Counted from the stretch's first letter, positions 2,139 through 64,000 are shown. The stretch is DNA of 64,000 nt from a virus (IMGVR_UViG_3300006925_000008:1-64000), one strand, 5' to 3'. Numbers and translations: made by a program. The notes: a model not told the origin generated them from the sequence alone.

Positions 2139-2158
2139 CCTCCTTCGGAGGGGTTATG
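2139..2158 (+). promoter_or_regulatory. Hairpin holding the chaperonin Shine-Dalgarno
   Basis: CCTCC (2139-2143), a TTC loop and GGAGG (2147-2151) form a five-pair GC stem in the mRNA just before the chaperonin ATG at 2156. The GGAGG half is itself the Shine-Dalgarno sequence. Folding would hide the ribosome binding site, so the hairpin could limit translation in a temperature- or structure-dependent way. The sequence complementarity is direct; the regulation is inference. Confidence 0.5.
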
Positions 2159-3799
2159 ATGCCCAACGGACAACAGCCGATATTCATAATGCCTGAAGGA
2201 ACAGACCGCACAAGAGGAAAGACGGCACAGGGTAACAATATCGCCGCCGCTAAAGCGGTTGCTGACGCAGTGAAATCAACACTAGGGCCTAAAGGAATGG
2301 ACAAGATGCTAGTCAATGGACTAGGCGATGTCCTCATTACCAATGATGGTGCTACAATCCTGCGTGAAATCAATGTCGAACATCCAGCGGCCAAGATGGT
2401 CATTGAAGTTTCAAAGACTCAAGAAGCACAGTGCTTCGACGGGACTACATCAGCCGTTGTTCTCGCAGGTGCTTTACTCAAGGAGAGCGAAGCACTGATC
2501 GAAAAGAATGTGCATCCGACTGTTATCGCATCAGGATACCGTCTCGCATCGTCTAAAGCATTGGAAACTCTTGAGAAGTGCGTGCTTGACGAAAGACAAC
2601 TGTCCAAGGTCGGTAAAGACCTAGGAGCCATTGCTAAGGTCTGTGCTGAAACAGCATTGACTGGCAAGTTTACTGATACTCACGAAGGAGTCAAGGATGT
2701 CATGTCAGGCATTGCGGGCGATGCCGTCAACAGATTGTCTGACGGGATAAACCCCCCAAACTTAGACGACATCAATGTGATATGTGCAACAGGTGGTTCA
2801 GTTGAAGACTCATACCTGATGGATGGAATTGTCCTAGAGAAGGAAAAGGCTCACAACGGAATGCCAACAGCAGTTGACGGAGCCTCGCTTGCATTGGTTG
2901 ACTTTGCTATTGAAGTTAAGAAAACTGAAGTCGATGCGAGAATCCAAATTACAAGTCCTGATCAAATGCAAGACTTCCTCGACCAAGAAGAAACAGCCCT
3001 GCGAAACATGGTGAAGAAGTTTCAGGATGCCGGAGCAAATGTGGTTCTATGTCAAAAGAAGATTGATGACCTAGCCCTGCATTACATGGCTAAGGCTGGC
3101 ATCATGGCATTACAGTCATGTCGAAAGTCCGAGTTGTCATCAGTCGCAAAGGCGACAGGTGCTGTTGTTATCAGTGACCTTGATGACTTAGTTGATGCTG
3201 ACCTTGGTTCCGCTGGACATGTGATTGAAGAACGAATTGGTGAGAACCTGATGGTTCGTATCGGTGGCGTGTCTGAAGTTGATTCAAGGGCGGTCACAGT
3301 CATCCTGCGTGGTGCAACCACCCATGTCGTTGAAGAGATTGAAAGAGCCTTCGATGATGCGCTTGGAGTAGTGTCTCTAGTCATCAACACCTCACAGATT
3401 GTCGTGGGCGGCGGATGCACATTTGCGGCAATGGCGAAGAACCTGCGTGAATATGCCAGCACTGTTGCTGGTCGAAAGCAGATGGCTATCGAAGCATATG
3501 CCAAGGCACTTGAAGAGATTCCTTCGACCATTGCTGAAAACGCAGGCATGGACCCAGTTGATTCGATCATCGCTTTGAGAGCGGCACACGCTAACAGCGC
3601 ATACACCCACGGAATCCTCGTTACAGATGAGGAGACCGACCTTCTAGTTGACAACCTCCTCCACTATGGAGTGGTTGAACCATTGAGCGTAGTCAAGCAG
3701 GCCTTGATTAGCGCAACTGAAACCTCGACCATGATTCTCCGCATCGATGATGTAATTCAAATGCGTCAAGCGGGGCCTCAAGGCTCACCTATGATGTGA
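2156..3799 (+). CDS. Group II chaperonin (thermosome subunit)
   Basis: A full-length 547-residue thermosome/CCT-type subunit, expected to form an ATP-driven double ring with a built-in lid that folds proteins in the cytoplasm. Visible hallmarks: the GQQPIF N-terminus, [10 protein letters not shown] (43-52), [21 protein letters not shown], the nucleotide-loop DGTT (95-98, with F instead of the usual G before D), the catalytic Asp region FDDAL (399-403) and GGG at 418-420. The C-terminus ILRIDDVIQ is typical, but the tail ends in GSPMM without GGM repeats. The segment around [12 protein letters not shown] and [11 protein letters not shown] resembles Thermoplasma thermosomes. It may fold capsid or tail proteins, as other virus-borne chaperonins do. 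Starts at ATG 2156 or 2159. Confidence 0.97.
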
Positions 3800-4032
3800 T
3801 GGTTATGCCTGTCCACGGCGATTTCACATACGATAGAAGTTGGGTTGAGATTGAGGACATGCTGGATAGAGCCGAGAAGGTTCAGAACCAACATGCGACG
3901 GCTATATCCGACAAGACAATGAACAAAAAGAGGCGAATGCATCACGCTCGCAACTTCAAAGCGTTGGAGGGTGTGGTCAAGACACTTCGTTGGGTGCTGG
4001 GGGACAAAGACATCGAACACCCCTTGGAATGA
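3796..4032 (+). CDS. Small basic protein of unknown function
   Basis: A 77-78 residue protein whose start (GTG 3796 or ATG 3799) overlaps the chaperonin stop, so it is probably co-translated with it. It has a central basic segment (MNKKRRMHHARNFK) flanked by helical stretches such as WVEIEDMLDRAEKVQNQ. There are no recognisable domains, cysteines or membrane segments. The link to the chaperonin is only positional. Confidence 0.6.
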   Translation: MMVMPVHGDFTYDRSWVEIEDMLDRAEKVQNQHATAISDKTMNKKRRMHHARNFKALEGVVKTLRWVLGDKDIEHPLE

Positions 4033-4085
4033 TCATGAAACTGCACGAGCAACCGAGAACATAGTCCATATGAACCTCATAAATC

Positions 4086-4400
4086 TCACGAGCCAATGCC
4101 GTGCCACCACCTGTCCATGAACGCTTTCTCTCGGAGGTATTGCTCCTCCGTTATCACATCGCCGCAATTCATCTGTATCATTGTCTCCCCCAATGGAGCA
4201 TCGTCCTCCACCTCCGTCGAGGGTGTTGGGACTGGGACCAGTATTTTCCGACTATGATGCTGAATGATTTCAGCGGCTTCAGTTGGCTTCAGGCCACCCA
4301 CCCTCGTGATACCACCTCCTTGGATGGTTACGATCATCTCATTAAACACTAGAAGTGTTCCTTCAGGCTCATCTTGCATATCAATTATTTTTCTTGTCAT
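4086..4400 (-). CDS. Small leftward acidic protein, possible early regulator
   Basis: The only leftward gene in the early half. The chosen ATG (4398-4400) has the Shine-Dalgarno GGAGATGA five bases upstream; longer in-frame starts up to 4436 lack one. The 104-residue product begins MTRKIIDMQDE, has a beta-rich stretch (GTLLVFNEMIVTIQGGG) and a helix LKPTEAAEIIQHHSRK, and ends FMDRWWHGIGS. It shares the 4401-4706 intergenic region with the divergent operon, a position typical of regulators, but no DNA-binding motif is clear. A rightward frame over the same bases looks like a shadow. Confidence 0.6.
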   Translation of the reverse strand: MTRKIIDMQDEPEGTLLVFNEMIVTIQGGGITRVGGLKPTEAAEIIQHHSRKILVPVPTPSTEVEDDAPLGETMIQMNCGDVITEEQYLREKAFMDRWWHGIGS

Positions 4401-4436
4401 AGTTTTCATCTCCATTTGTTTTTTGTTCATGTTCAT

Positions 4437-4706
4437 CTAAAGCGGGGATATTCTGAAAATCGGAAAAAACTCTCAACTTTCCCGAAAACTTTCCGAAGTC
4501 TCACAACCATCATCTTTACTCGATATATCTCAAGAATCGGATTATTTTGTCGAAGACGAACATTATATTGTATCATTACCTGCAACTAGGATGTTGATAT
4601 TACGATTTGAATCTCGGACCTCGTGATTGGAATCTTTGCCAATAGTGAGACATTAAATACCCTGACGGCCTCGTAGGTGTTGTCCCCAAGAGGGATTAAG
4701 GTGAGA
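4437..4706. promoter_or_regulatory. Divergent promoter region
   Basis: A 270-base AT-rich non-coding stretch between the leftward gene and the long rightward operon. A TATA-like TTAAATA lies at 4653-4659, about 50 bases before the ATG at 4707. That predicts a short leader carrying the Shine-Dalgarno AAGGTGA (4698-4704). Other TATA-like elements (CGATATATC near 4521-4529, TTATATTGTA near 4563) could serve either strand. The AACTTTCCCGA / AACTTTCCGA near-repeat is near 4475-4495. Confidence 0.55.
4604..4634. promoter_or_regulatory. Paired operator-like dyads GATTnnAATC
   Basis: GATTTGAATC (4604-4613) and GATTGGAATC (4625-4634) are two dyads with identical half-sites, spaced 21 bp apart (two helical turns). 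They end about 18 bp upstream of the TATA-like element at 4653. A third related dyad with half-sites exchanged, AATCGGATT, lies at 4535-4543. The pattern fits a dimeric regulator binding the same DNA face beside the early promoter. The sites are seen; the function is inferred. Confidence 0.45.
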
Positions 4707-6389
4707 ATGATGAGTCGAAAGTTGATTAAAGAGAGTGCTGAAGAGATGGATAATATCCCCGCTGAATTGGGTCCTGCGTTGAAAATGCTAGGAACAATCC
4801 TGCAAGAAGAATACATGAGTCGTGATGGGGTTTACCTCAATACAACCGAGCGTAAAGACAACCCCCAGCCTATTGCACTTGTCGATGATACTGTCATCAC
4901 AGTCAGGGTGGGTAACAAGCGCATTACAATGACTCCATCTGATGCTGACAAACCAGCCGTCCTGATACCAGTCGGTATGAGTGACAAAAGAAACACATGC
5001 TCGATCCCTAGAGACTGGGCTACTGGTGTTTGGGTTGATGCATTGATTGAAGCATTCGATGGAGACCCATCAGTAGCATTTGCATTTGCTGAAAGAGTCA
5101 ATACAGCCATTGACCTTGCTATGGTGGTCGATGAAGAGACTGGCAAAAAGTCAGTCAAGCAATCTGACCTCCCGACTCATCGTCATGCTGTTGAAGTGGC
5201 TGAAATCCTTGAGTCGTTGAAGCGACACTTTGAGGGTCAGTCGGCAGGTTCACCAAAGGTCAACATGGACTTCACCATTGAGGAGATTGGTGCAACACCT
5301 GTTGGGCCAACTGCTGAAGAAGTTGAGATGGCTAATGAATTGGCTAAACTACAACGCACCGAGAAGGTCTTGAACACCCTCGTTCCTAATCCCAATGTAA
5401 CACCCACGCAGGAGACCCCTCCTGTGGCACAGGATAATGTCATCCCCGTTGAGGCATCCCATCCCGAAACTACCGACCCTGTGCCTGTTGTATTGGAGGA
5501 GGAAACCACCCCAGTTGTTGAAGTGGAGGACACTGTGGATTCTGAACCTATTCTAGGCGTTACTGGTCATCCTGAACATATTGAACACTTGATCATCGAA
5601 GCAATCAACACTGCTGATGAAGCCAATGATGGACCTGATGGACAGGTCGGCCCCACATGGGGTCAATTGAAGAAGACATTGAGTGACCACACCCTCCGTT
5701 ATGTGGACACGCCTGATGACATCAGGGATGCACGCAGGTGCTTAGACAAACTTGTCAAGCACGGCCTAGTCAACAAAGAGGGCGCACGAAGAAGCACACG
5801 CTATTACCTGACTGGTTCAGGGCTTGAGTTGCTGGTCGGAATGCCATTGCCTGATGTCATCAGTCAAGACCTTGAAGAAGTCTCAATGGCCCCTAGCGGG
5901 GATTCCGCTGTGGCTGTATCACATGAGCCTCATATCAACGCTGAAGCAGGTGGCATGTCCATGTGGACTAATGACCCTGAAGTGGTCCAAGAAGTCAAGG
6001 ACGAATGGGATGCGATCATTGCTGACAGTGAACCTTGGGACGGACATGTCGAGGACACCTTTGCTAACAACCCTATGCCTATGGCTGTTATACCGCACAC
6101 AGGCTGTGCTAACTGTGACAAGCCGCATAAGTTTGTTTACGAAGACCTCCCAGTAGGCCCACGCAGGTTCTGTTCTGAAAAGTGCCTATGTCACTATGCC
6201 GCCCTAGAATACAAAGGCGAAGGGTATTACATCGAGTCATTGCGAAACCAACCGATGGGTCACTTTGAGGCCCCAGTTGATGAGCCAGTGGATGAAGAAC
6301 CCGTTCCTGTGGCTGGTCCCGCCAGCATGGACACTGGGACGGCTGATGACCCTGCTATGGATTACCTTGGACTAGGAGGTGGTTTCTGA
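4707..6389 (+). CDS. Winged-helix-like and zinc-finger protein, first gene of long operon
   Basis: About 560 residues, starting at ATG 4707 or 4710 just after AAGGTGA. Three parts are visible: an N-terminal globular region (to about 200), a Pro/Glu/Val-rich linker (about 235-290), and a helical region around GPTWGQLKKTL...RCLDKLVKHGLVNKEG...RSTRYYLT. That last pattern resembles a winged helix-turn-helix with its wing. A Cys-rich site follows (CANCDKPH ... FCSEKCLCHY), and the tail is acidic. It could be a DNA-binding regulator or replication accessory protein; no known family was recognised. Leading the operon from a regulated promoter would suit a regulator. Confidence 0.65.
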   Translation: MMSRKLIKESAEEMDNIPAELGPALKMLGTILQEEYMSRDGVYLNTTERKDNPQPIALVDDTVITVRVGNKRITMTPSDADKPAVLIPVGMSDKRNTCSIPRDWATGVWVDALIEAFDGDPSVAFAFAERVNTAIDLAMVVDEETGKKSVKQSDLPTHRHAVEVAEILESLKRHFEGQSAGSPKVNMDFTIEEIGATPVGPTAEEVEMANELAKLQRTEKVLNTLVPNPNVTPTQETPPVAQDNVIPVEASHPETTDPVPVVLEEETTPVVEVEDTVDSEPILGVTGHPEHIEHLIIEAINTADEANDGPDGQVGPTWGQLKKTLSDHTLRYVDTPDDIRDARRCLDKLVKHGLVNKEGARRSTRYYLTGSGLELLVGMPLPDVISQDLEEVSMAPSGDSAVAVSHEPHINAEAGGMSMWTNDPEVVQEVKDEWDAIIADSEPWDGHVEDTFANNPMPMAVIPHTGCANCDKPHKFVYEDLPVGPRRFCSEKCLCHYAALEYKGEGYYIESLRNQPMGHFEAPVDEPVDEEPVPVAGPASMDTGTADDPAMDYLGLGGGF

Positions 6390-46266: not shown

Positions 46267-46671
46267 TTATTGAAATCTAGGATGGCCTTCAAACTTCATC
46301 TGATCGGCAATTGCTTGTAATTCCTTTAGCCGTCGCTGGCTTTCTTCATGACTTTTGACTCTCCCTTGTATTCTTTCGGTTGCCGCTGTTTCAGGCATAT
46401 TGCCCAGTGATTCTAAAGGAAAATCGGGGTCGCCTACATTAGCGGCCACAGTCCCTTGCATGTTGGCCGCATTAGACATGTAATCCTCCGCCCAGCCTTC
46501 AGGGTCTCCTTTGTAAGGGGCGGGTATAGGGCTTTGCGAGACCGCCTGTGCGGTTTCTTGACCTCCAAGCATCTGAAGTTGTTGCATGTCCTGCTCATAA
46601 TCCCCCTTCAAGAATTGACTCCATGCGGAGTCCAATGCCTGCTTGTGAATCATGGCTTCTGTTTTTGGCAT
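46267..46671 (-). CDS. Late protein sharing the MPKTExMIHKQALDSAWS leader (B)
   Basis: Start chosen as ATG 46671 (AGGTGA is about 5 bases upstream; longer starts to 46680 exist). 134 residues; the first 17 are nearly identical to those of the adjacent gene, but the rest is different: a helical, Gln/Met-rich chain with no cysteines, ending in FEGHPRFQ. The leader may be a shared targeting or assembly tag. Function unknown. Confidence 0.6.
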   Translation of the reverse strand: MPKTEAMIHKQALDSAWSQFLKGDYEQDMQQLQMLGGQETAQAVSQSPIPAPYKGDPEGWAEDYMSNAANMQGTVAANVGDPDFPLESLGNMPETAATERIQGRVKSHEESQRRLKELQAIADQMKFEGHPRFQ

Positions 46672-46672
46672 T

Positions 46673-47317
46673 TTACTCACCTGAATAGGTCAGTTGTCGG
46701 TTGCGGGGCGGGGGGAGTTGTCCTTGTGGCTGTGGCCTCTCTAACTCCATTCCCTTATCAGCAAAACGGTCATAGAACATGGGATGAATCTCATCCGCTC
46801 GTTGTCCGGGGTTTACCAGCCATTCAGGGATGCCCTCCATGGGTGACTCTCCCGTTCCTTCTGTTCTAATACTGCTCTCTCCTTCTGCGTGTTCAGGGTT
46901 CTTCACCGTGTCTTTAGTTGAAACACGCATTTCACTGTTTTTGTCAGGTAAGGCATAACCCTGCTTCCTGTCATAATTCGGATGAGACGGGTCTAAAGCA
47001 CCTCTTTCGTAGTGTTCGGGTCGGGGGGCCATTACTTCTGAATCTCCGGGCCTTCTTTTTCTCCGGTCATATAGGTCGGGGTTTCCTGATGTAGCACTTA
47101 GCATATTTGCTCTTTCGTCCCTCAAGTTGCTCCTCACTTTTCGCTCATATTCCGTCACTACTGGCTGATCAATTTGGTCATCAAGATGTTCTAAATCTCG
47201 CCTCAAATTATCAGCGTGCGCTTGATGACCATGCGGTGCATATGAGCCGTAAAACTTCATCAGACTCCATGCGGAATCTAGGGCTTGCTTGTGAATCATG
47301 TCTTCTGTTTTAGGCAT
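46673..47317 (-). CDS. Late protein sharing the MPKTExMIHKQALDSAWS leader (A)
   Basis: Start chosen as ATG 47317; upstream in-frame starts to 47359 overlap the tail-tube gene end. 214 residues: a leader almost the same as in the adjacent gene, then a hydrophilic, Arg/Asp/Glu/Pro-rich chain with low complexity and probable disorder. It follows the tail-tube gene and precedes the tail chaperones. The DNA around both leaders is also alike, indicating duplication of this end. Confidence 0.6.
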   Translation of the reverse strand: MPKTEDMIHKQALDSAWSLMKFYGSYAPHGHQAHADNLRRDLEHLDDQIDQPVVTEYERKVRSNLRDERANMLSATSGNPDLYDRRKRRPGDSEVMAPRPEHYERGALDPSHPNYDRKQGYALPDKNSEMRVSTKDTVKNPEHAEGESSIRTEGTGESPMEGIPEWLVNPGQRADEIHPMFYDRFADKGMELERPQPQGQLPPPRNRQLTYSGE

Positions 47318-47327
47318 AATAATCAAC

Positions 47328-49775
47328 TCATAGGGTATAATATGGATTAGTTTCTTCAATCTTCAAGTGTCGGACAATGCATTCAACTTCAGCGGTGACT
47401 GGTCCCTTGTCATCAGGCATTGGATGATTTGCTTTGACGATGGTGTAGTCTTCAAGCGTGATTACTGTGCTTTGTCTTGTAGCCGCTGAACCTGTCTTGT
47501 TCATTCTGAACACGATGTCGTTTGAATTAGTGTGATGCTTTCTAGTCCTCATTTCAGTCCAATAGCGGTCATCCTCGACAATGGCCGAGAAGTTAAACTT
47601 GTATTCTCTCATTGCTTCTGTGATGTCAAGTGCCTGATGTGTTCCGCCGTGTTGAACCTGATCACCGTCAAGCGTTTGACCTTCAAATCCACGAACATAC
47701 CAGCGAGCGGAATTGTTGTTGGCGAGACTAAACTCAAATTGAGTCCCACGGAGGACAGGTGTGCCAAATGCTTCAACGCTCAAGTCTTGGAATAGGTATG
47801 GCTTTTCACCATCAACTGCAACACCTGAAACCAATCGGTTGACAAAAGTGTTCGCTGTATTTTCAAACATACGGTGTGGGACAAACTTGTTGACAGTATC
47901 CGTGTAGTGGCGTGTTGCCTCATACTCCATTGTCAGTTTGCATTCTCCTTCACTATCAGCCGCTAGTTTAGCGGATTGCACTTTGCATCCATTGAAGAGT
48001 CGTAGCATTTGTTCACGGCCCGGAGTTGCGTTTGTTTGTCTAAAAGACTGTTCGATCATAAATGTCGGAACATGAGTATGCCCGAATAATGTGTGAGATA
48101 CACCATGGGCCAAAGCACCACCAGTGCCAATCATTGGGGTCCCTCTTCGACCATCCTTGACAGTCAAAGCACCAGCCGTTGAATGCACATAGCCCATTCT
48201 TTCAATGCCACATGATGCGGCGATGTGGTCAAGTAGCCATGGTTCTTCGATATACAACTCGGTGTTTGCATTGTTCTTGCCGATAATCCTGCGGATTTCA
48301 TTCTTGAACACAGTTGGCAGTGTTGAGTCAGCACCCGGAATAGAATGGGTGTCTTTGTCGTAAATCTGAATATAGTCGCCAGCGGAGTATTTCGCACCTA
48401 GGGTCGCACTAACCTTGACAAACACATCGCCTGAAGCAATGCTCGCAGTTGGCGAACCAAGAAGTTGGACCGGGACATCGACAAGTTTGACTCGTGCTTG
48501 CACACCCGCATCGATGTCGGCAACGGTCTTGTGAGCCGGTGCATCAACAAGGACTGAAGTGGATGCCGCAAATGAAGCGGAACCAGCACCGCTAGTGACA
48601 GTGATTGTCACTGTTGGATAGGAGGTATATCCGCTACCCGGTTCAGTGATTACGATTGCGTCTAATGTTCCTGTCGCAGTGACAGTCCCAGTGGCTTGAA
48701 CGCCCCCTGTGAGGTCGGGCGCACCGAAGACTACATCAGCGGAGTTTATCACTCCTGCTTGAGTTACATCGCCCATAGCAGGCACGCCAACCGCTGAAAT
48801 GCCAGCGGCGAATGAACCGATCAAGACTTTACCGTCAGTGCCAAGAGTTTTGATAATTCCGGCAGTTGGAACCGTAGCATGGGAAGTAGCAAAAGAGCCG
48901 ACACCCATTACATTCCCGGTGTCCGTAGCAATAGTCCTAGCACCAAGGAGAATGGTCTGACCATCAGCACCACCAGTGAGGCTGGCGAGACCAGCCGCCC
49001 CTAGTGTCGTTAGGTCTGTGACATTCACTTTATTGGTTGACCCATATGCTTGAACCGCCCAAATGTCAGTTGCACTGTCTTTGAGGTTCAATGGATTCTC
49101 GGTTAATATGGTTGCACCTGAAAGACTGTTAATGCTAGACAATTCGCCATCGCTCTTTGAAACACAGCCGCCAAGTGCATATTTCATCCACTTCAAGGTG
49201 TGTGCGTTTGACTCCATGCTCCCACCGGCCAGTGTTTCACGGCCACTGGTCAATACATTGACATCTCGACCCATGCCAATGACATGTTGCTTTCTGACAT
49301 CAATTTCAGGTTCAGGCAATCCAAATGTGTTTAGCAATCCAATGAAACCATCGCTCTTTACTTGAGACGATGAATCCGTGCTTGCCGCATCAATGGTTGG
49401 ACAGCCAATGCTGTCAAGAGTAAAAATATCTGACGCTTTTGCATTGCCCGTAGTAGCCATTGCAGGTTGAACATTGATCGTGTTAGTTGAACAGTCATTT
49501 GCAGTGATGTAATAGGTGCGGCGTGTTGCTGAATAGTCATCAGACGAATAGACATCTCCACCCGCTACACGAAGGATACAACCCACGAGAACATTGTCAG
49601 GAACCGCATTATGGAACCATGCATTGCTACCGTATGTAATCACGGAGGTATTTGGCAATGTAGCGTGTGCCGCCACTGCCCAACCATCCGCACTGTCGTC
49701 GCCTTCTAGTCTCAATCCTGTTTCTTTGCCCCAAGATACTTCTGCTAAGTCGCCCTTGAATACTGTGTTTACCAT
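47328..49775 (-). CDS. Major tail tube protein
   Basis: An 815-residue, Gly/Thr/Ser/Ala-rich protein from ATG 49775, with GAGGTGA about 10 bases upstream. Key segments: FGLPEPEIDVRKQHVIGMG, TSGRETLAGGSMESNAHTLKW and the C-terminal TVITLEDYTIVKANHPMPDD and AEVECIVRHLKIEET, which fit tail tube proteins. It is longer than most (usually 150-500), probably because of inserted domains in the middle. Codon use is more regular than in the surrounding genes, consistent with a highly expressed protein. Confidence 0.7.
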   Translation of the reverse strand: MVNTVFKGDLAEVSWGKETGLRLEGDDSADGWAVAAHATLPNTSVITYGSNAWFHNAVPDNVLVGCILRVAGGDVYSSDDYSATRRTYYITANDCSTNTINVQPAMATTGNAKASDIFTLDSIGCPTIDAASTDSSSQVKSDGFIGLLNTFGLPEPEIDVRKQHVIGMGRDVNVLTSGRETLAGGSMESNAHTLKWMKYALGGCVSKSDGELSSINSLSGATILTENPLNLKDSATDIWAVQAYGSTNKVNVTDLTTLGAAGLASLTGGADGQTILLGARTIATDTGNVMGVGSFATSHATVPTAGIIKTLGTDGKVLIGSFAAGISAVGVPAMGDVTQAGVINSADVVFGAPDLTGGVQATGTVTATGTLDAIVITEPGSGYTSYPTVTITVTSGAGSASFAASTSVLVDAPAHKTVADIDAGVQARVKLVDVPVQLLGSPTASIASGDVFVKVSATLGAKYSAGDYIQIYDKDTHSIPGADSTLPTVFKNEIRRIIGKNNANTELYIEEPWLLDHIAASCGIERMGYVHSTAGALTVKDGRRGTPMIGTGGALAHGVSHTLFGHTHVPTFMIEQSFRQTNATPGREQMLRLFNGCKVQSAKLAADSEGECKLTMEYEATRHYTDTVNKFVPHRMFENTANTFVNRLVSGVAVDGEKPYLFQDLSVEAFGTPVLRGTQFEFSLANNNSARWYVRGFEGQTLDGDQVQHGGTHQALDITEAMREYKFNFSAIVEDDRYWTEMRTRKHHTNSNDIVFRMNKTGSAATRQSTVITLEDYTIVKANHPMPDDKGPVTAEVECIVRHLKIEETNPYYTL

Positions 49776-54951: not shown

Positions 54952-56121
54952 TCAAGCACTTAGGTCCCTCACCTTGCCGTGTGCGCCATAGAACAGTTGC
55001 CATAGGTTGCCCATCGTGTGGAACATTCCCATTTGACCTAGACGGTTGATACCGAATGGGTCTCCTGTCTCAATGCCTGATTCGTGATAGAGAGTTGGTT
55101 TTGCAGTGCAGAAGTAGGTGTAATCAGTATCCATGTAGTATAGACGGCTGATTCCTGCTCCTCCTTCGTTGTGAACATCCTTAGAAGGAATAAGAGGCAC
55201 ACCGTTGTATGTAGCAACGATAAACCCTGCCTCCATACCCGGAACACCTTTCACGCCGTTGACACCCGGAACAACTTTCTTCATTTCAGTGAAGCGTTGT
55301 TGAGGTTGTAGCAACTGTTGAATCTTCTCAAGAGTATCGTATCCAGTCATGATGACCTTTGGTTGTCCACCACGCTCCCAAATGTTGCGGAACATGCCAT
55401 CGAGGATGTTCAGTGTAAGTGGGCGTTCATCACCATTGGTTCCCGCATCAACATTTGCATCAGACCATTCTTGCGTTGCCGCTTCAGGTCGGCTGATGTT
55501 GTATTGGTCGTGGTCGCCTGCCGATACATCGCCAAAGGTTGAAGCCTTCTCGATCTTAGCGGATGAAGTAATACGGTCAATAGAGTCAAAGTCATTCAAT
55601 GTGGTGCTACGGTAGGAAATATCCTTTAGAAGCATTTTGTTGATGGTTTCAGCGTGGTGCTTGGCCATCTCCATTTTCATGACAGCACGAGCATCACCAA
55701 GACCGTCATCCTTGTCAGCAAGGAACATTGCGGTTTCAGTGAGGTCAAAGGTGTGAGCCACTGTGCGTGGTTTGTCATTGACATGCAAGAAAGTTGGTTT
55801 GCTTGTTTCAGGCAGTGTTGCGTTTTCAGGAACGCCGCCACCCTTGCTAGAATCAGGCTTGCCAGTGACGACTCGCCATCCACTCTTTTCCCATGGTTTC
55901 TTTGGCATGATTGAAAATGCGTTAAACTCTTGGTTCAACTGTGACCAAACCTTACGGCCAAAAATAGCCTGATAGGTTCCGCTTGTAGTGGACATCAATG
56001 GAGAGTCAGCCTTCAATAGGTCTGTTCCGCTGTATGCCCATGCGTTGTTTCCTGCTCCTGCACCGTAATACAGTCGCTCCATGTCTTCAATTGTTCGTAG
56101 GTATCCTCGTGATCCGCTCAT
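54952..56121 (-). CDS. Major capsid protein, HK97 fold
   Basis: A 389-residue protein directly after the protease/scaffold gene, with a strong ribosome site (GGAGATGA) before ATG 56121. It has a helical N-terminal arm, then KVWSQLNQEFNAFSIMPKKPW, TVAHTFDLTETAMFLADKDDGLG, a spine helix region, NILDGMFRNIWERGGQPKVIMTGYDTLEKIQQLLQPQQ, FIVATYNGVPLIPSKD and a final DPFGINRLGQMGMFHTMGN. That order matches HK97 major capsid proteins of tailed archaeal viruses. It forms the icosahedral shell. Confidence 0.85.
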   Translation of the reverse strand: MSGSRGYLRTIEDMERLYYGAGAGNNAWAYSGTDLLKADSPLMSTTSGTYQAIFGRKVWSQLNQEFNAFSIMPKKPWEKSGWRVVTGKPDSSKGGGVPENATLPETSKPTFLHVNDKPRTVAHTFDLTETAMFLADKDDGLGDARAVMKMEMAKHHAETINKMLLKDISYRSTTLNDFDSIDRITSSAKIEKASTFGDVSAGDHDQYNISRPEAATQEWSDANVDAGTNGDERPLTLNILDGMFRNIWERGGQPKVIMTGYDTLEKIQQLLQPQQRFTEMKKVVPGVNGVKGVPGMEAGFIVATYNGVPLIPSKDVHNEGGAGISRLYYMDTDYTYFCTAKPTLYHESGIETGDPFGINRLGQMGMFHTMGNLWQLFYGAHGKVRDLSA

Positions 56122-56161: not shown

Positions 56162-57490
56162 TTATTCTCCTCTCAAGGCCCTCCGTGCCAAGTCTTCAGC
56201 CGCAAGCCATCCATCGACACCATTGCCCATTGCGTTAAACTCGTCATGGGTTGGCACACGAACAGATGTTGTTGCAGGTTCAGCAACGACGGACTTCTGC
56301 AAGTCAGTGTTTTCTTGCTTCAATGAGGCAATCTCATTTCGCAGGGAGTTGATTTGTCCACCAAAGTCATTTTGCTTTTGGATGGCCAATGCATTTTCCG
56401 TTTCAGCATTGTAACGGTCTTTCCACTCTTTTTCAACAAGGGATTTGACTGCTTCTTCATCACGAATGGATGCGTAAGCGTGGTATCCTCGTTCAAGGGA
56501 TTGAGGTGAAAGGTTCAAGCCGCCTTTGATAACCTGCTTGTTACCTGAAGGTGCATTCATCTTCATCGAGCCAGTTTGCTTGATGACATTCTGATTGCCG
56601 CTTGCTGATGGCAAACTTGGGTAAGATGGTTCAGAAGCGGATTCTCCACTTCCTTCAGCATCTCCTTGACCACGGTGACTGTATCCGCCACTGCCTTCTT
56701 GGAGGTAAGCCTTCTCAAGACCGAAGTGGTTACGGAGGGAATCAAGGTTGACTCCACTCTCGTGAGCAAACTTCTCAAGCGTATCGATGTATGCAATTGC
56801 ACTACTATCGGCATGTTGATCAGTCTTAACAACTGGTTCATTTGCTGGTTCTTCGTCTTCAATGTGCTTTAACACACGGCTTAGGCTGTCTCGTATTTCG
56901 CTCAATGCTTCATTACTCATTTCTTGTTCACTTCCTGTATTGTCCATTTTAAGGATTGTATATCGGGCTTCCGGGTTGATGCCCTTTTTGCACAAGGTAA
57001 TCTCGTGCAATTCTAAATCGGTAATCTCCCTGTGTGTCCCATGTTCAGGGGTGGTTTTGGTTACACGGAATAACGCTTGACCACCGATAGAGAATGCTTT
57101 GAGGTCGCCACTGCGAACCTGCTTTTGGACTTCACGAGCCTTTTGGATGTCGTCACGGACACGGCATACGACAAAGAGTCCATGCTCGTCCACTTCTGAT
57201 TTCCAAACTCGTCCTTCCGAATCTGTATAATTGTCAACTACTTCACCGACTTGAATGCCGCTATGTGCTAGTTGAACATTTCTGAATGCCTTGTTACCCA
57301 TAAACTTCGTGAATGCCTTTGACAATGCAGATGCTGGGATTCGATCACCCTGCTTGTCAACCATGTCCACACTTGCATATCCCGCAATGTATAGGTCACT
57401 ACCTTCTGACGCTTTCAGAATAAAATCGCTTCCAACAGCCGAGAACCCTGCGGTTCTGACAGTAGGATTAGCCATTATACTGGTCGCCAT
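56162..57490 (-). CDS. Prohead protease with scaffold-like C-terminus
   Basis: A 442-residue protein. The N-terminal 180 residues carry the HK97-type prohead protease triad: AHSGIQVGEVVD (His76), AFSIGG (Ser134) and LHEITLCKKGINPEA (Glu163). The C-terminal half is scaffold-like: acidic, Gln/Glu-rich, with a coiled coil (LRNEIASLKQENTDLQKSV) near the end, as in fused protease-scaffold proteins. It would organise and then mature the procapsid. The ATG at 57490 lacks a Shine-Dalgarno but has a TATA-like element 26 bases upstream, fitting a leaderless transcript. Confidence 0.85.
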   Translation of the reverse strand: MATSIMANPTVRTAGFSAVGSDFILKASEGSDLYIAGYASVDMVDKQGDRIPASALSKAFTKFMGNKAFRNVQLAHSGIQVGEVVDNYTDSEGRVWKSEVDEHGLFVVCRVRDDIQKAREVQKQVRSGDLKAFSIGGQALFRVTKTTPEHGTHREITDLELHEITLCKKGINPEARYTILKMDNTGSEQEMSNEALSEIRDSLSRVLKHIEDEEPANEPVVKTDQHADSSAIAYIDTLEKFAHESGVNLDSLRNHFGLEKAYLQEGSGGYSHRGQGDAEGSGESASEPSYPSLPSASGNQNVIKQTGSMKMNAPSGNKQVIKGGLNLSPQSLERGYHAYASIRDEEAVKSLVEKEWKDRYNAETENALAIQKQNDFGGQINSLRNEIASLKQENTDLQKSVVAEPATTSVRVPTHDEFNAMGNGVDGWLAAEDLARRALRGE

Positions 57491-57572: not shown

Positions 57573-57785
57573 ATGTCAGACGAGGAACATGAATGCAGTA
57601 TATGTGGTGGGGAGTTTAATGGTGAAAATGGACGACTGGCGTTCATTGGGGGTGTTTTAATCAAAATAGGACCGTGGTGCATATCTCCTATCATGGAGAT
57701 GTTCAAAGACCAAATTATTGGGGATTTCATAGAAGACCTCCCCGATGCACTTAGAATAGAGATTGAAAAACACTCAAGCGAGTAA
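57573..57785 (+). CDS. Lone rightward zinc-binding protein within the late region
   Basis: About 70 residues from ATG 57573 (57555 possible). Begins MSDEEHECSICGGEF, then IGPWC and a helical acidic end DQIIGDFIEDLPDALRIEIEK. One zinc site at most. It is the only rightward gene in 41 kb of leftward genes, overlaps the end of the large 1161-residue gene by 12 bases, and has its own TATA box. A regulatory or host-takeover role independent of late transcription is possible. Confidence 0.6.
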   Translation: MSDEEHECSICGGEFNGENGRLAFIGGVLIKIGPWCISPIMEMFKDQIIGDFIEDLPDALRIEIEKHSSE

Positions 57786-60700
57786 TTCATCTTCTTCAAG
57801 TTGGTCAGTGGCTTCAACCTTAGTCCTTACTTCTTCTTCAGTTGCCTGTGCTTGAGGAGTCCTCAATGGATAGGAGAGTTTGGCCCGACCCATTTCAATA
57901 TCAATACTAGCGGGTCCGTCTTTCTGTGGGTCCATACTAATTTGCAGGTGGTATGGCTGTTCCACCTCCTCCTCCGGTTCTTCATCATTCAAATTAGACA
58001 AAGCACCTATTGTTGTAGCATCATCGTCGGTCAACTCCGTTGGACCTCTTGGTGCGGTAATATCTGCTTGCATTCCTGACCATGCGCCGCCATCAGGCGA
58101 AGCACCATTCATACGAGGATATACGAAGTTTTCAATGATGTCATCATCAATTGCCTCATTTACGGTCCACTTATCTCCCTCCTCGGTTCTTTCAACACCG
58201 TATTCAGGGCCAAAAACCTCAATCATTTTAGGGGTCAACCCCTTGACAGCAGTGCATAACTCATCTGAAGTCATTGCTTCTTCAGCATCAGACAACGCCC
58301 TGCGTGCGTGAACCATCATGTGAGACTTTTCTTCACGATCACCGCTGTCATCAAGTAATTCAGGCGCACGGAGAATCAAATCGTCTTCTGTATTGACACG
58401 CTTACGAGGTTTCTTTCTTTTAGAAGGGGCTGAATGTATTGCGGAATGTGTCCCGCCTGTTGTTGACGACACCGTGCCAGCACCACCAGCACCAGCACCA
58501 GCACCAGCACCACCGCCGCCAGCCGCACCTTCTTTCAATAAGGCAATAGCAACTGGACCCCATAGTTTCAGTTGAGTCCTCGCATGTTTCACTAGCGTGG
58601 TGGTTCCCCTATACAGGTCGATGTCCATAGCATGTCTGCCATTGAATTGACCTTTAACGATAACTGGCTCTAATAACCCCGGATACTCCAAAATGATGTC
58701 CTGTCCTTTCACCATTACTTCAGGCAGTGGTCCATATGGGACTGTCTTAGCAATTTCTTCATCAGCAAAGTGAACCCATTTAGGGTGCATCTCTTTACCT
58801 TTGATAAAAGTCGAGGTGGCATCCCTAATCAACAAACCAGTGCCGCCCAATTCGTCCACTGCCTTTGCTAAACCATGCTCATCAGTAGTGATACATGAGT
58901 TTGGCATTGGGAAGTGAAGGTATTCATCTGAATGATAAAGTGTTCTTAGAGCGTTCAATCTGTCTTCTAAAGGCTCCATGTGAAGGTCTGTTCCTTTATG
59001 GACTAGGAGGTCAACCACATTCAGTTTGTCTCCTTTCACATATGCATCAACCGTAAAGTCACCTTTACGCTCTTTCAATGCTTTTTTGACCTTTGATGGC
59101 AAGTCGATTGGGTCAACTCTTTTACCCTCTTTCTTAACAAGCATTCTCTTACCTTCAGGCATTTTCTGAACAACCCACTCACCACTAAATCCTTTGATAG
59201 TGGATAGGTCATCTAAATCGTAAACCGTGTGGGCTGGCTTGATCATCGTTTCAAACACACCAGTCGGCTCATAGTCATCCGCTTTTCGCAATGAACCTGT
59301 TTGAAGAGGTGCATACCCGCTTTGGTCAACTGAAGAGATTGCATTGATGTCCTTTGTTTTAGGCGATAACTTTGACATTGGACCCATGAGAGCAGGGGAT
59401 ATTGCCCTCACTAAATCAGCATGAGCCGTTCTTTGGAGTATGTTGAAAGGGGCATCAGCAATGTTGTATGCGTATCCCTGTTGTTCCGGGTCATAACGCC
59501 ATGTTAAGGTGGCGGGCATGTCATGCCCCCAAGCGTCAGTATCGCCACTCACATAAGTTGGGGGAACGATAGCATGGGAATCAGGGGAGACTGGCCCCAC
59601 TGAACCCATAGTCGAAGACATTTCCGCATTCGGTGCTAGAGTTTTGTAGGACTCGCCCATTTGCATACGAAGTAATGAATGGTTTGCCGCCGCCGCTATT
59701 TGTTGAAGGTTGCCTCGACAAATAGTATGCATCATCTCATCATCAGAACCCATTGGATTCAAAACTTGAGGACCAAATTGAGCAATCACCTTTTGAGCAT
59801 GTTGTTGCATAACACGAGACATATGACTGTTTGAGGCCCTAAAGTGTTCGTTATGGTGACTCCAATAGTCATCAGTCGAAAACGGATGCTCCTCTCGCCC
59901 ATAGCCGGTTCTAGGTCCCCCCATGTCGGTTTGAGCGGCTAATGCACGCCCTAGACTGGACATCATCAAAGCGTCATCGGGGACATCAATACGACCACCG
60001 CTCAATTCTGAAGGGTGTTCATGTAACCTGTTTGATGCCGCTGAATACATTGCGAGCCTCTTTTGATAATCATTGTCAGGGTCGAAGGTTGAACCCAATG
60101 CGGCCCTGCCGGGGTGGTCCGGCTCCATTTGATTAACAGCACTAGGAAAATGAGTCCCACCTTGATTAAACGAGCCAGCCTCTTCTAAGTCATGGTTGAT
60201 CAGATGTTTATTCATCCAACCCCCATTGAATATATCAGGGTAAGACTGACTTAATATGCTATCCAATGAATCTATACTCCTGCCAACTCCCCCCCAATAC
60301 TGGTATGGTTCCCAATGATGGTAATTCATTGAAGGCTCGATACCTGACTCACTTGATACCCAAGGAGACATGTAATGCTGTAAGTCTCCCCCCGGATGTG
60401 GTTCTGTTGGCCCGTGTCTATCAGGGGACCTTTGCCACCAAGACGACATTGGCTTGAATCGTTCTCTCCAATTTCTCAATGCACGCCCCCAAGAGATGCC
60501 TGCCTTTTCTTGAAATTGATTCTCTATTCGTTTTGCATCAGGCGAACCCTCTTCGGTCATTGCCATTTGTCCCATAAGGTCCATGAAATTACTACGCTGT
60601 CCTTCAGTAATCCATTCTAAACCAAACAACTGTGGCAACATGCCAAACGAGGTGGACAACTCCTGTCGCTTATTGTCGTGATATTCCTCATCGCTAAGGA

Positions 60701-61259
60701 ATGAATTACGATTCCGATCACGAGTATAAAGGTCATGTTGGCTCTCAATAGGCAGGCCTAGATAATTGACAACTGACATCTCACTGGTTGGGACCTTTGC
60801 TTTAGCCTTTTCATTTTCAGCCATGATTGGCAGTTGCTCAATAGAACGCATGATGTGATGAACATATTCAGGGTCTCCATGTGCCGCACCATGCAATAGA
60901 GGGTGGCTATTTGATTTCATGCCAAAGGGATGGTGTTCACCAAATGGGTTATCCTCCTTCGCCTGTGGCCAGTCTTGAGTATAATCGGTTGTAACCTTTG
61001 CATGACCTGAAAGGTAATTCTTGAGGTTTTCAGGGATTACCATGCTAGTGGCCGAGACTGGGCTATTCAAATCACGCATCGAATATGCCGGTGTCGATTC
61101 AGCCACGGCTAATGTCGAAGCCAAAGCCTCATCTTCAGGCGTGGGCATACCCCCCTGCATTGCTTCGGTATAGGAGGGAATGTCAACATCCTTCAACAAA
61201 AGTATTGACAGGACGGTATCGGTTCTTTTGAGAATCAACTCTTCCTGTTCTTTAGACAT
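57774..61259 (-). CDS. Large late protein with embedded ligase-like nucleotidyltransferase domain
   Basis: A 1161-residue protein between portal-side genes and the protease. Residues 1-660 are hydrophilic, His/Met/Gln-rich and unrecognised. Residues about 665-835 follow the order of an ATP-dependent ligase adenylation domain: motif I region QKMPEGKR (698-705), FTVDAY (735-740, motif III), VVDLLVHKGTDL with EPLEDRL, GTGLLIRD (806-813, motif IV) and HPKWVHF (825-831, motif V). Motif I is K-x-x-E-G-x-R instead of K-x-D-G-x-R, with one extra residue. A Gly/Ala linker (912-929) and a C-terminal acidic region follow. It may be virion-associated; activity is uncertain. Confidence 0.6.
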   Translation of the reverse strand: MSKEQEELILKRTDTVLSILLLKDVDIPSYTEAMQGGMPTPEDEALASTLAVAESTPAYSMRDLNSPVSATSMVIPENLKNYLSGHAKVTTDYTQDWPQAKEDNPFGEHHPFGMKSNSHPLLHGAAHGDPEYVHHIMRSIEQLPIMAENEKAKAKVPTSEMSVVNYLGLPIESQHDLYTRDRNRNSFLSDEEYHDNKRQELSTSFGMLPQLFGLEWITEGQRSNFMDLMGQMAMTEEGSPDAKRIENQFQEKAGISWGRALRNWRERFKPMSSWWQRSPDRHGPTEPHPGGDLQHYMSPWVSSESGIEPSMNYHHWEPYQYWGGVGRSIDSLDSILSQSYPDIFNGGWMNKHLINHDLEEAGSFNQGGTHFPSAVNQMEPDHPGRAALGSTFDPDNDYQKRLAMYSAASNRLHEHPSELSGGRIDVPDDALMMSSLGRALAAQTDMGGPRTGYGREEHPFSTDDYWSHHNEHFRASNSHMSRVMQQHAQKVIAQFGPQVLNPMGSDDEMMHTICRGNLQQIAAAANHSLLRMQMGESYKTLAPNAEMSSTMGSVGPVSPDSHAIVPPTYVSGDTDAWGHDMPATLTWRYDPEQQGYAYNIADAPFNILQRTAHADLVRAISPALMGPMSKLSPKTKDINAISSVDQSGYAPLQTGSLRKADDYEPTGVFETMIKPAHTVYDLDDLSTIKGFSGEWVVQKMPEGKRMLVKKEGKRVDPIDLPSKVKKALKERKGDFTVDAYVKGDKLNVVDLLVHKGTDLHMEPLEDRLNALRTLYHSDEYLHFPMPNSCITTDEHGLAKAVDELGGTGLLIRDATSTFIKGKEMHPKWVHFADEEIAKTVPYGPLPEVMVKGQDIILEYPGLLEPVIVKGQFNGRHAMDIDLYRGTTTLVKHARTQLKLWGPVAIALLKEGAAGGGGAGAGAGAGGAGTVSSTTGGTHSAIHSAPSKRKKPRKRVNTEDDLILRAPELLDDSGDREEKSHMMVHARRALSDAEEAMTSDELCTAVKGLTPKMIEVFGPEYGVERTEEGDKWTVNEAIDDDIIENFVYPRMNGASPDGGAWSGMQADITAPRGPTELTDDDATTIGALSNLNDEEPEEEVEQPYHLQISMDPQKDGPASIDIEMGRAKLSYPLRTPQAQATEEEVRTKVEATDQLEEDELLA
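58481..58513. repeat. (ACCAGC)n tandem repeat encoding a Gly/Ala linker
   Basis: About five six-base ACCAGC-type units in a row. On the coding (minus) strand they encode GAGAGAG, the flexible linker after the ligase-like domain. A candidate for length variation. Confidence 0.6.
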
Positions 61260-63001: not shown

Positions 63002-64000
63002 TTATCGTTGCCCCTTTGAACCGGCTCTCCGCTCGATTTGTTTGATTCTATCGTCAACCGCCCTCTCGCTCGATGACTTCATGTCTCTTTTGTCTCCCTT
63101 AGTGGATGACAAAGCCGCCTCACCGTCAACTCGTTTGATGTGGTCGGGGGATTGACCGCCGCCTGCTCTATCGCCCATTTGACTGTCGCCAATGGTTCTC
63201 AAAGAAGGGAGGTCATTCGCCGCATTTACCGCCGCTGATTCAGGGATTACCATTGAACCCCCTCTATTCGGTGTAAACTCGGTTCGCTTGAATAACATTT
63301 CAGGGGTAATCTCCAACTGTTCAACACTGGTCTGAACCGGACCTCCACCCTGCTGTCCACCCTGCTGTCCACCCTGCTGTTCAGCCGCCGCCGCTTGTTG
63401 AGCCGCCGCTACTTCTTGAGGGTCAGGTTGCTTGTAATCAAACTCTAGCATTTGGTTGTCCGTGCCGTCTCTTAGGTTAGCATCGAAACCTGCCTGCTTC
63501 ATTTGCATCATGTTTCTAATCGCCATTTCATCTCGGCGTAGCGTCATGATTTCATCCTCTTCTTCGTGTGGACTCAAAGTCAAGGTCCACTCGCTGATCG
63601 TAAATGCCTCCATCAATGCGGGGAATAGAACCGTATTGTAAATGGATTGCGAATAAGCAACTGACCTGTTACTGACCACGATTTGCATACCTTCATTGTT
63701 TAAGCCTCCACCTGAAACATCGTTCATGAATACATTTGAAACACCAAAGAATGCGGCTATTCGCTGACGGATGTCATCCTTGATTGGGATATACTGCAAC
63801 TCTTCTAAAGTGTCCATCATACGGACATATTCAAGACCGCCTCTTCCTGATTCGGTTTCAACACCAACAGTCGGAATGTAATTTGGGTCTCTTTCAAGAT
63901 GCTCTTGGATATTGCGTGCTGTTCTCTCAACTGTTTCAAGGTTCGATGATTTGATGACCATCACACCACGAGGCATCCTTCGCTTCTGATATGCGGAATA
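63002..64000 (-). CDS. Portal protein, N-terminal part outside window
   Basis: The frame is open to the right edge, so the N-terminal part is missing; at least 332 residues are visible. IPIKDDIRQRIAAFFGVSNVFMND, SGGGLNNEGMQIVVSNRSVAYSQSIYNTVLFPALMEAF and the DEIMTLRRDEMAIRNMMQ region match the C-terminal half of phage portals (stem, wing and crown helices). A Gln/Gly-rich stretch with three copies of GGQQ follows, then a basic tail. The portal forms the dodecameric vertex for DNA entry. It heads the virion gene order here. Confidence 0.8.
   Translation of the reverse strand, partial: YSAYQKRRMPRGVMVIKSSNLETVERTARNIQEHLERDPNYIPTVGVETESGRGGLEYVRMMDTLEELQYIPIKDDIRQRIAAFFGVSNVFMNDVSGGGLNNEGMQIVVSNRSVAYSQSIYNTVLFPALMEAFTISEWTLTLSPHEEEDEIMTLRRDEMAIRNMMQMKQAGFDANLRDGTDNQMLEFDYKQPDPQEVAAAQQAAAAEQQGGQQGGQQGGGPVQTSVEQLEITPEMLFKRTEFTPNRGGSMVIPESAAVNAANDLPSLRTIGDSQMGDRAGGGQSPDHIKRVDGEAALSSTKGDKRDMKSSSERAVDDRIKQIERRAGSKGQR
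63345..63380. repeat. Tandem 12-bp repeat in the portal gene
   Basis: CCACCCTGCTGT occurs three times exactly (63345-63356, 63357-63368, 63369-63380). On the coding strand it gives repeated GGQQ. Number changes would alter a flexible linker in the portal C-terminal part. Confidence 0.75.

Follow-up and report, generated by a model that had tools for sequence, protein, structure and literature searches.

The viral DNA studied here, IMGVR_UViG_3300006925_000008:1-64000 (the window), comprises bases 1-64000 of a 97,368-nucleotide virus record and carries P0001, an open reading frame (ORF) at 57774-61259 on the minus strand, a strand that an earlier note on this DNA had left out. P0001 encodes a protein of 1,161 amino acids. 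With a probability of roughly 0.7, we consider it to be a large head-morphogenesis protein that contains a pseudo-ligase, in which the cleft of a nucleotidyltransferase (NTase) fold has been co-opted for binding without catalysis. Our computations show that the domain has this fold, that its catalytic residues are lost in all lineages sampled, that it is under strong purifying selection and that the gene keeps a fixed position between those for the portal and the protease. The domain would descend from an ATP-dependent DNA ligase and have given up adenylylation and joining. P0001 would be built into the prohead, where the prohead protease would cleave it at a hydrophobic-x-Lys-[Ala/Ser]-acid site immediately before the NTase domain, as it possibly does in the major capsid protein (MCP), and the cleft would serve non-catalytic binding, much as snurportin holds an RNA cap with the same fold.

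A ligase-type fold within a probable head protein

Searches with the whole protein against Pfam, PHROGs and PDB sequences gave nothing usable, so we turned to profiles of the family and to a comparison of folds. We gathered six close relatives, 185 matches to a profile of the domain (80 of them retained) and 246 to a second profile, built from four distant relatives (80 again retained). Proteins of the distant group are larger, at about 1800-2200 amino acids. Among 67 diverse relatives, 58 match Pfam DNA_ligase_A_M (PF01068; best 3e-8), 20 match the snurportin m3G-cap-binding domain (PF21974; E<=1, best 8.9e-7) and five match the mRNA capping enzyme profile. The window sequence by itself matches DNA_ligase_A_M weakly (E=0.013) and PF21974 not at all; the snurportin profile also matches all four members of the distant clade A5. 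A profile of A5 alone, from which the window sequence was excluded, finds P0001 at E=1.1e-38, against 0.7 for the best of 2000 shuffles, so the similarity is not due to chance. No relatives were found in bacterial or archaeal genome contigs, hence no provirus or host copy, and the named phage collection yielded no full-length relatives, only chance-level phi29 pieces in one search.

Structure prediction agrees with the profiles. The AlphaFold2 (AF2) model of residues 640-908 has a mean predicted local distance difference test score (pLDDT) of 88.1 and a predicted template modelling score of 0.81, and its top Foldseek matches in the PDB are archaeal ATP-dependent DNA ligases (4eq5, E=8.6e-10, probability 1.00), followed by LigIV, LigD and mRNA guanylyltransferases. 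Modelling thus confirms a predicted ATP-dependent DNA ligase or mRNA-capping NTase fold for residues ~675-835. The earlier note had proposed such a domain inside the 1,161-residue protein, with motifs in the order I, III, IIIa, IV and V, and had suggested profile and structure comparisons as a check; AF2, Foldseek and the family profiles all bear out the domain, and the motif order is correct. In the full-length model (pLDDT 72), a well-predicted N-terminal body (~97-640) is followed by a low-confidence linker, the NTase domain and partly disordered acidic parts past residue 913. No PDB match of its own to the N-terminal body (97-640) appears among the Foldseek hits listed, all of which are NTase proteins. 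The parts of P0001, all on the minus strand, are as follows.

57774-61259, minus: P0001, head-module protein with an internal pseudo-nucleotidyltransferase domain; ORF of 1161 amino acids, at the same location in all relatives checked
59340-60971, minus: N-terminal body, residues 97-640, helical then beta, acidic; mostly pLDDT 85-96 in the full-length AF2 model
59277-59291, minus: candidate prohead-protease site LRKAD, residues 657-661, at the low-confidence linker 658-669; resembles LLKAD of the MCP
58755-59237, minus: core of the NTase (ligase/capping) fold, residues 675-835, catalytic residues lost, according to AF2, Foldseek and residue counts
59145-59168, minus: motif I region QKMPEGKR, residues 698-705, with Met700 at the canonical Lys column (HMMER alignment to 4eq5 and 2hiv; column counts)
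59040-59048, minus: motif III region DAY, residues 738-740, with Tyr in place of the catalytic Glu
58764-58841, minus: motif IV-V region, residues 807-832 (TGLLIRDATSTFIKGKEMHPKWVHFA); RD...ST[FY]...H.kW retained, motif V lysines lost (alignments and column counts)
58524-58754, minus: beta + helix module behind the NTase domain, residues 836-912 (AF2 secondary structure and sequence comparison)
57774-58523, minus: acidic tail, residues 913-1161, partly disordered (net charge -27, isoelectric point (pI) 4.4, stretches with pLDDT<50)

Sequence comparison places a segment resembling an oligonucleotide/oligosaccharide-binding (OB) domain, assigned by eye, between the NTase domain and the beta + helix module in the larger relatives; the same comparison did not find it in the window clade.

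Loss of catalytic residues in a strongly selected domain

Residue counts were taken over 152 non-redundant relatives, an earlier count having used 116. The HMMER alignments to 4eq5 and 2hiv set the catalytic Lys of ligases on column 700 and run through D-G-x-R without a gap. What had been read in the note as an extra residue in motif I is therefore a substitution (Met700) at the Lys column and not an insertion. Lys stands at column 700 in 45/152 relatives, none of them in the clade of larger proteins; the others have W, M, F, Y, Q, H, I, V or L there. The Lys-700 state requires at least four changes on a tree with 54 representatives, so the column is not under selection for catalysis. The neighbouring column 699 is Lys in 107/152 relatives, the window included, and A, H, I, S, L, V, Q, R, E, T or D in 45/152. 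The idea that K699 is the catalytic Lys, shifted by an insertion, is rejected in view of these replacements and the gap-free ligase alignments.

The Glu of motif III (DGE) occurs in 0/152 relatives, and the two lysines of the motif V Lys-x-Lys pair in one and two of them, respectively. In motif IV, a Glu five residues ahead of R812 was found in 14/116, and the window has Thr-Gly; a gapped profile alignment gives an acidic residue in 98/152, followed by Gly in three, a count that depends on the alignment. A complete catalytic set is present in none of the 152, which leaves the note's suggestions of nick sealing during packaging or protein adenylylation unsupported.

Other residues are held tightly. 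Gly703 and Trp828 never vary and Asp738, Asp750 and Arg812 hardly ever do, while Arg705 is kept in 136/152; H825 and W828 are conserved outside the classical motifs. From knowledge of ligase structures, we take G703, R/H705, D738, D750 and R812 to be motif residues of the nucleotide pocket. The ratio of nonsynonymous to synonymous substitution rates (dN/dS) of the NTase domain is 0.015 against one relative (L003) and 0.030 against another (L006, near saturation), below the values for the N-terminal body (0.049 and 0.039, respectively). The NTase domain is thus under the strongest purifying selection in P0001, and because it is also kept in every sampled lineage, it must have a current job. Of the note's further idea, a structural relic, one half stands, in that catalysis appears to be lost; the other does not, as no part of P0001 is more constrained than this domain, which is present before the protease gene in all 150 loci with enough flank.

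Comparison with archaeal ATP-dependent DNA ligases (Thermococcus 4eq5, Pyrococcus 2cfm, Archaeoglobus 3gde) illustrates what has been kept and what has gone. The P0001 family shares with them the adenylation-domain fold, the order of the motifs including IIIa, and the stretch LLIRDA.STF..G....W between motifs IV and V. Unlike these enzymes, P0001 has no DNA-binding domain that we could see and the window clade no visible OB domain; the motif III Glu and motif V Lys are lost, Met stands at the Lys column, and the fold is embedded in a 1161-residue head protein.

Snurportin-1 is a eukaryotic nuclear import adaptor and in that respect unlike P0001, but its m3G-cap-binding domain is a non-catalytic NTase fold that binds the cap, and the motif I pattern W.V...P.GKR is common to both. 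Among precedents for binding by an NTase fold that has lost catalysis, snurportin is the best, and the binding role of P0001 is proposed by analogy with it. P0001 is acidic overall (pI 5.1), and because the NTase domain itself is slightly acidic (net charge -4), the coating of bulk DNA is unlikely; we disfavoured a bulk DNA-binding role on the same ground, the domain not being basic. More plausible ligands are a nucleotide, the end of a nucleic acid or another head protein as partner. In a narrower version, the fold of a DNA-replication enzyme has become a snurportin-like, non-catalytic head module that, once freed by the protease inside the particle, recognizes one particular nucleotide or nucleic-acid end, perhaps sensing packaging or leaving with the ejected genome; as stated, this version is rather unlikely.

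The acidity of the protein, its place in the head operon and its disordered acidic tail would also suit a ligand-free structural block, scaffold or core, for which shape and protein contacts alone matter; conserved residues beyond the classical motifs (H825, W828) would fit it too. The nucleotide-pocket residues are, however, among the best conserved, and a mere brick would have no need of them. We regard this explanation as doubtful.

Position in the head operon and candidate processing

P0001 lies in a capsid-assembly operon between portal and protease genes, as the earlier note had stated, and the location is indeed unusual for such a domain. In the direction of transcription, the terminase (66247-67662 in the full record) is followed by a 489-amino-acid protein, the portal, four small ORFs, P0001, the protease and the MCP. 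Its principal neighbours are listed here.

63002-64000, minus: portal, cut by the window end (63002-64843 in the full record); phrog_18178, 3.2e-20
56162-57490, minus: prohead maturation protease (S78 family), the next downstream gene; Pfam PF04586, 2.6e-10; phrog_23555, 1.9e-22
54952-56121, minus: MCP (SU10-like) with a conserved LLKAD site at K37; Pfam SU10_MCP, 1.7e-9; phrog_24667, 8.5e-44; aligned to the HVTV-1 MCP

The protease gene follows P0001 in 150/150 loci whose flank is long enough, and in the window clade (A2) the portal gene precedes it in 71/71. In a separate collection, based on the MCP, the NTase protein again comes ahead of the protease in almost all marine lineages whose flank is long enough; within it, none was found before the protease in L206, L207 and L263, nor in the haloarchaeal lineages. 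L207, which has no NTase domain, carries a gene for a subtilase-family protease (3305-5560) two genes ahead of the prohead protease.

Several patterns would fit processing by the protease. The motif hydrophobic-hydrophobic-Lys-[ASDEG] occurs 36 times in the head module against 13.3 expected (0/200 shuffles reach this), and nowhere else is it enriched (tail, 9 versus 6.9 expected; early genes, 14 versus 9.9); controls that substitute Arg or Glu for the Lys show no head-module enrichment. Just ahead of the NTase domain, [LIMV]xK[ASEDG] is found in 139/150 relatives (for example, DLHKSD, GSLRKAD and LLVKAG), compared with 22% of random windows from the same proteins; these relatives are not independent samples, although their lineages span about 25-30% identity. 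In the MCP, LLK[AS]D is conserved near residue 37 and aligns with SKAD at residue 102 of the HVTV-1 MCP. KAD is invariant in four aligned MCPs, down to those of HVTV-1 and HCTV-1, whose homology starts near it, making this a candidate maturation cleavage site. By the same token, the protease may cut P0001 just before the NTase domain.

Elsewhere in the genome record (L009), at 85715-95162 on the minus strand, about ten late ORFs open with a near-identical M-T-A-F-D-x-A-W-x-L-L-K and continue with unrelated sequence; the shared start looks like an N-terminal targeting or processing signal of virion proteins. Two minus-strand ORFs in the window, at 46267-46680 and 46673-47359, share the start MIHKQALDSAWSxxxK, a variant of the AW..LK signal.

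The corresponding slot in the haloarchaeal Druskaviridae, shortly ahead of the protease and MCP genes, is occupied by HVTV-1 gp115 and HCTV-1 gp109, proteins of 1210-1313 amino acids that likewise contain an enzyme-like internal domain. Their genes (L090, 6458-10399; L091, 5672-9304) encode a zeta-toxin domain, which has a P-loop kinase fold in contrast to the NTase fold of P0001, and HVTV-1 adds a C-terminal ADP-ribosyltransferase domain. The MCP and protease of these viruses are homologous to those of the window virus. Homology between P0001 and the slot proteins themselves was rejected (comparison probability 0.3%).

This slot bears on a further explanation, that P0001 is internal cargo: packed into the head and released there by protease cleavage, it would be injected together with the genome and act on the host, in the manner of phage P1 DarA or the ejection proteins of SPN3US; DarA is trimmed by a protease and ejected (PMC12810830). 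The zeta-toxin-domain protein in the slot of HVTV-1 and HCTV-1, with its terminal ADP-ribosyltransferase domain in HVTV-1, lends the reading some weight, and the subtilase two genes ahead of the protease in a related contig and the protease-type motifs that open many head-module proteins agree with it. Set against this, the slot proteins have no detectable homology to P0001, and we hold the cargo explanation to be possible at best.

A number of observations weigh against a pseudo-ligase reused for binding. Motif I of the larger relatives still reads D-G-K-R, and 75/152 relatives, chiefly these larger proteins, have Arg as the second residue of the motif V pair; Lys is retained at column 699 in 107/152; and many relatives, the number varying with the alignment, have acidic residues close to where the motif IV Glu would be. 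Loss of catalysis judged from sequence can mislead, and an unusual active site could exist. The binding role is drawn by analogy, the conservation of K659 could have a structural cause, and the N- and C-terminal candidate sites are conserved in part of the family only. The Lys at column 699, the D-G-K-R and the basic motif V residue of the larger relatives, together with invariant Gly703, Arg705 in 136/152 and the strong purifying selection, would favour an active, non-canonical NTase that transfers AMP or GMP through a shifted K699 and other residues, for example in the repair of genome nicks during packaging or in protein modification. We consider such an enzyme improbable: K699 is replaced in 45/152 relatives, not one of the 152 has the motif III Glu, and the motif V lysine pair is absent; in the predicted secondary structure K699 also ends its strand, one residue before the catalytic position, and probably faces the other way.

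The magrovirus replisome ligase

The source of the window is likely an archaeal tailed virus related to magroviruses. Its MCP is 31% identical to those of the Druskaviridae HCTV-1 and HVTV-1, and a thermosome-family chaperonin gene lies at 2156-3799 of the window on the plus strand (PF00118, 2.8e-154) and is present in 17/20 related records. The combination of a chaperonin with a Druskaviridae-related capsid has been reported for viruses of Poseidoniales (PMC5332604, PMC8651126). A Mu gpF-like domain (PF04233) was not found in the five records searched for it. The genome record (L009) also has an HMG-CoA-lyase-like gene (PF00682, 2.3e-20) at 93103-93996 among late-strand genes; such a gene is reported for Aoguangviridae.

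An ATP-dependent DNA ligase is listed in reviews as part of the magrovirus replisome (PMC10768690, PMC12999244; also PMC10160649), and in the group A magrovirus the gene so named adjoins that for the prohead protease (PMC7318539). Within our 20 records, a profile of the domain itself finds the NTase gene once in each. The ligase profile PF01068 matches in 13 of them, always at the NTase gene, and TIGR00574, run on 11 records, matches that gene only; no other ligase was detected in the 20 records with PF01068, PF09414 (RNA ligase) or PF01653 (NAD ligase). PolB (PF00136) occurs in nine records, exactly those with the larger protein; it was not found in the record of the window or in ten others of its clade, although the records may be incomplete. 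The larger form (about 1800-2000 amino acids, with the OB-like segment) and PolB are found together in the records of L086, L087, L089, L099, L115, L132, L160, L169 and L170. The nine PolB-encoding relatives therefore have at most a single detectable ligase-like gene, the NTase gene.

What was published as a replisome component reads here as a head protein without catalytic residues. The magrovirus replisome ligase is probably this head-operon pseudo-ligase, the identity of the gene resting on one sentence in PMC7318539. If so, magroviruses, which are reported to be widespread and abundant marine viruses, would depend on the ligase of their hosts, and an annotation that has been repeated would need correction. 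P0001 would also present a case of an enzyme fold that remained under strong selection after catalysis was lost, within a capsid-assembly protein, and the LRKAD-type site offers a concrete candidate for the recognition site of an archaeal tailed virus prohead protease.

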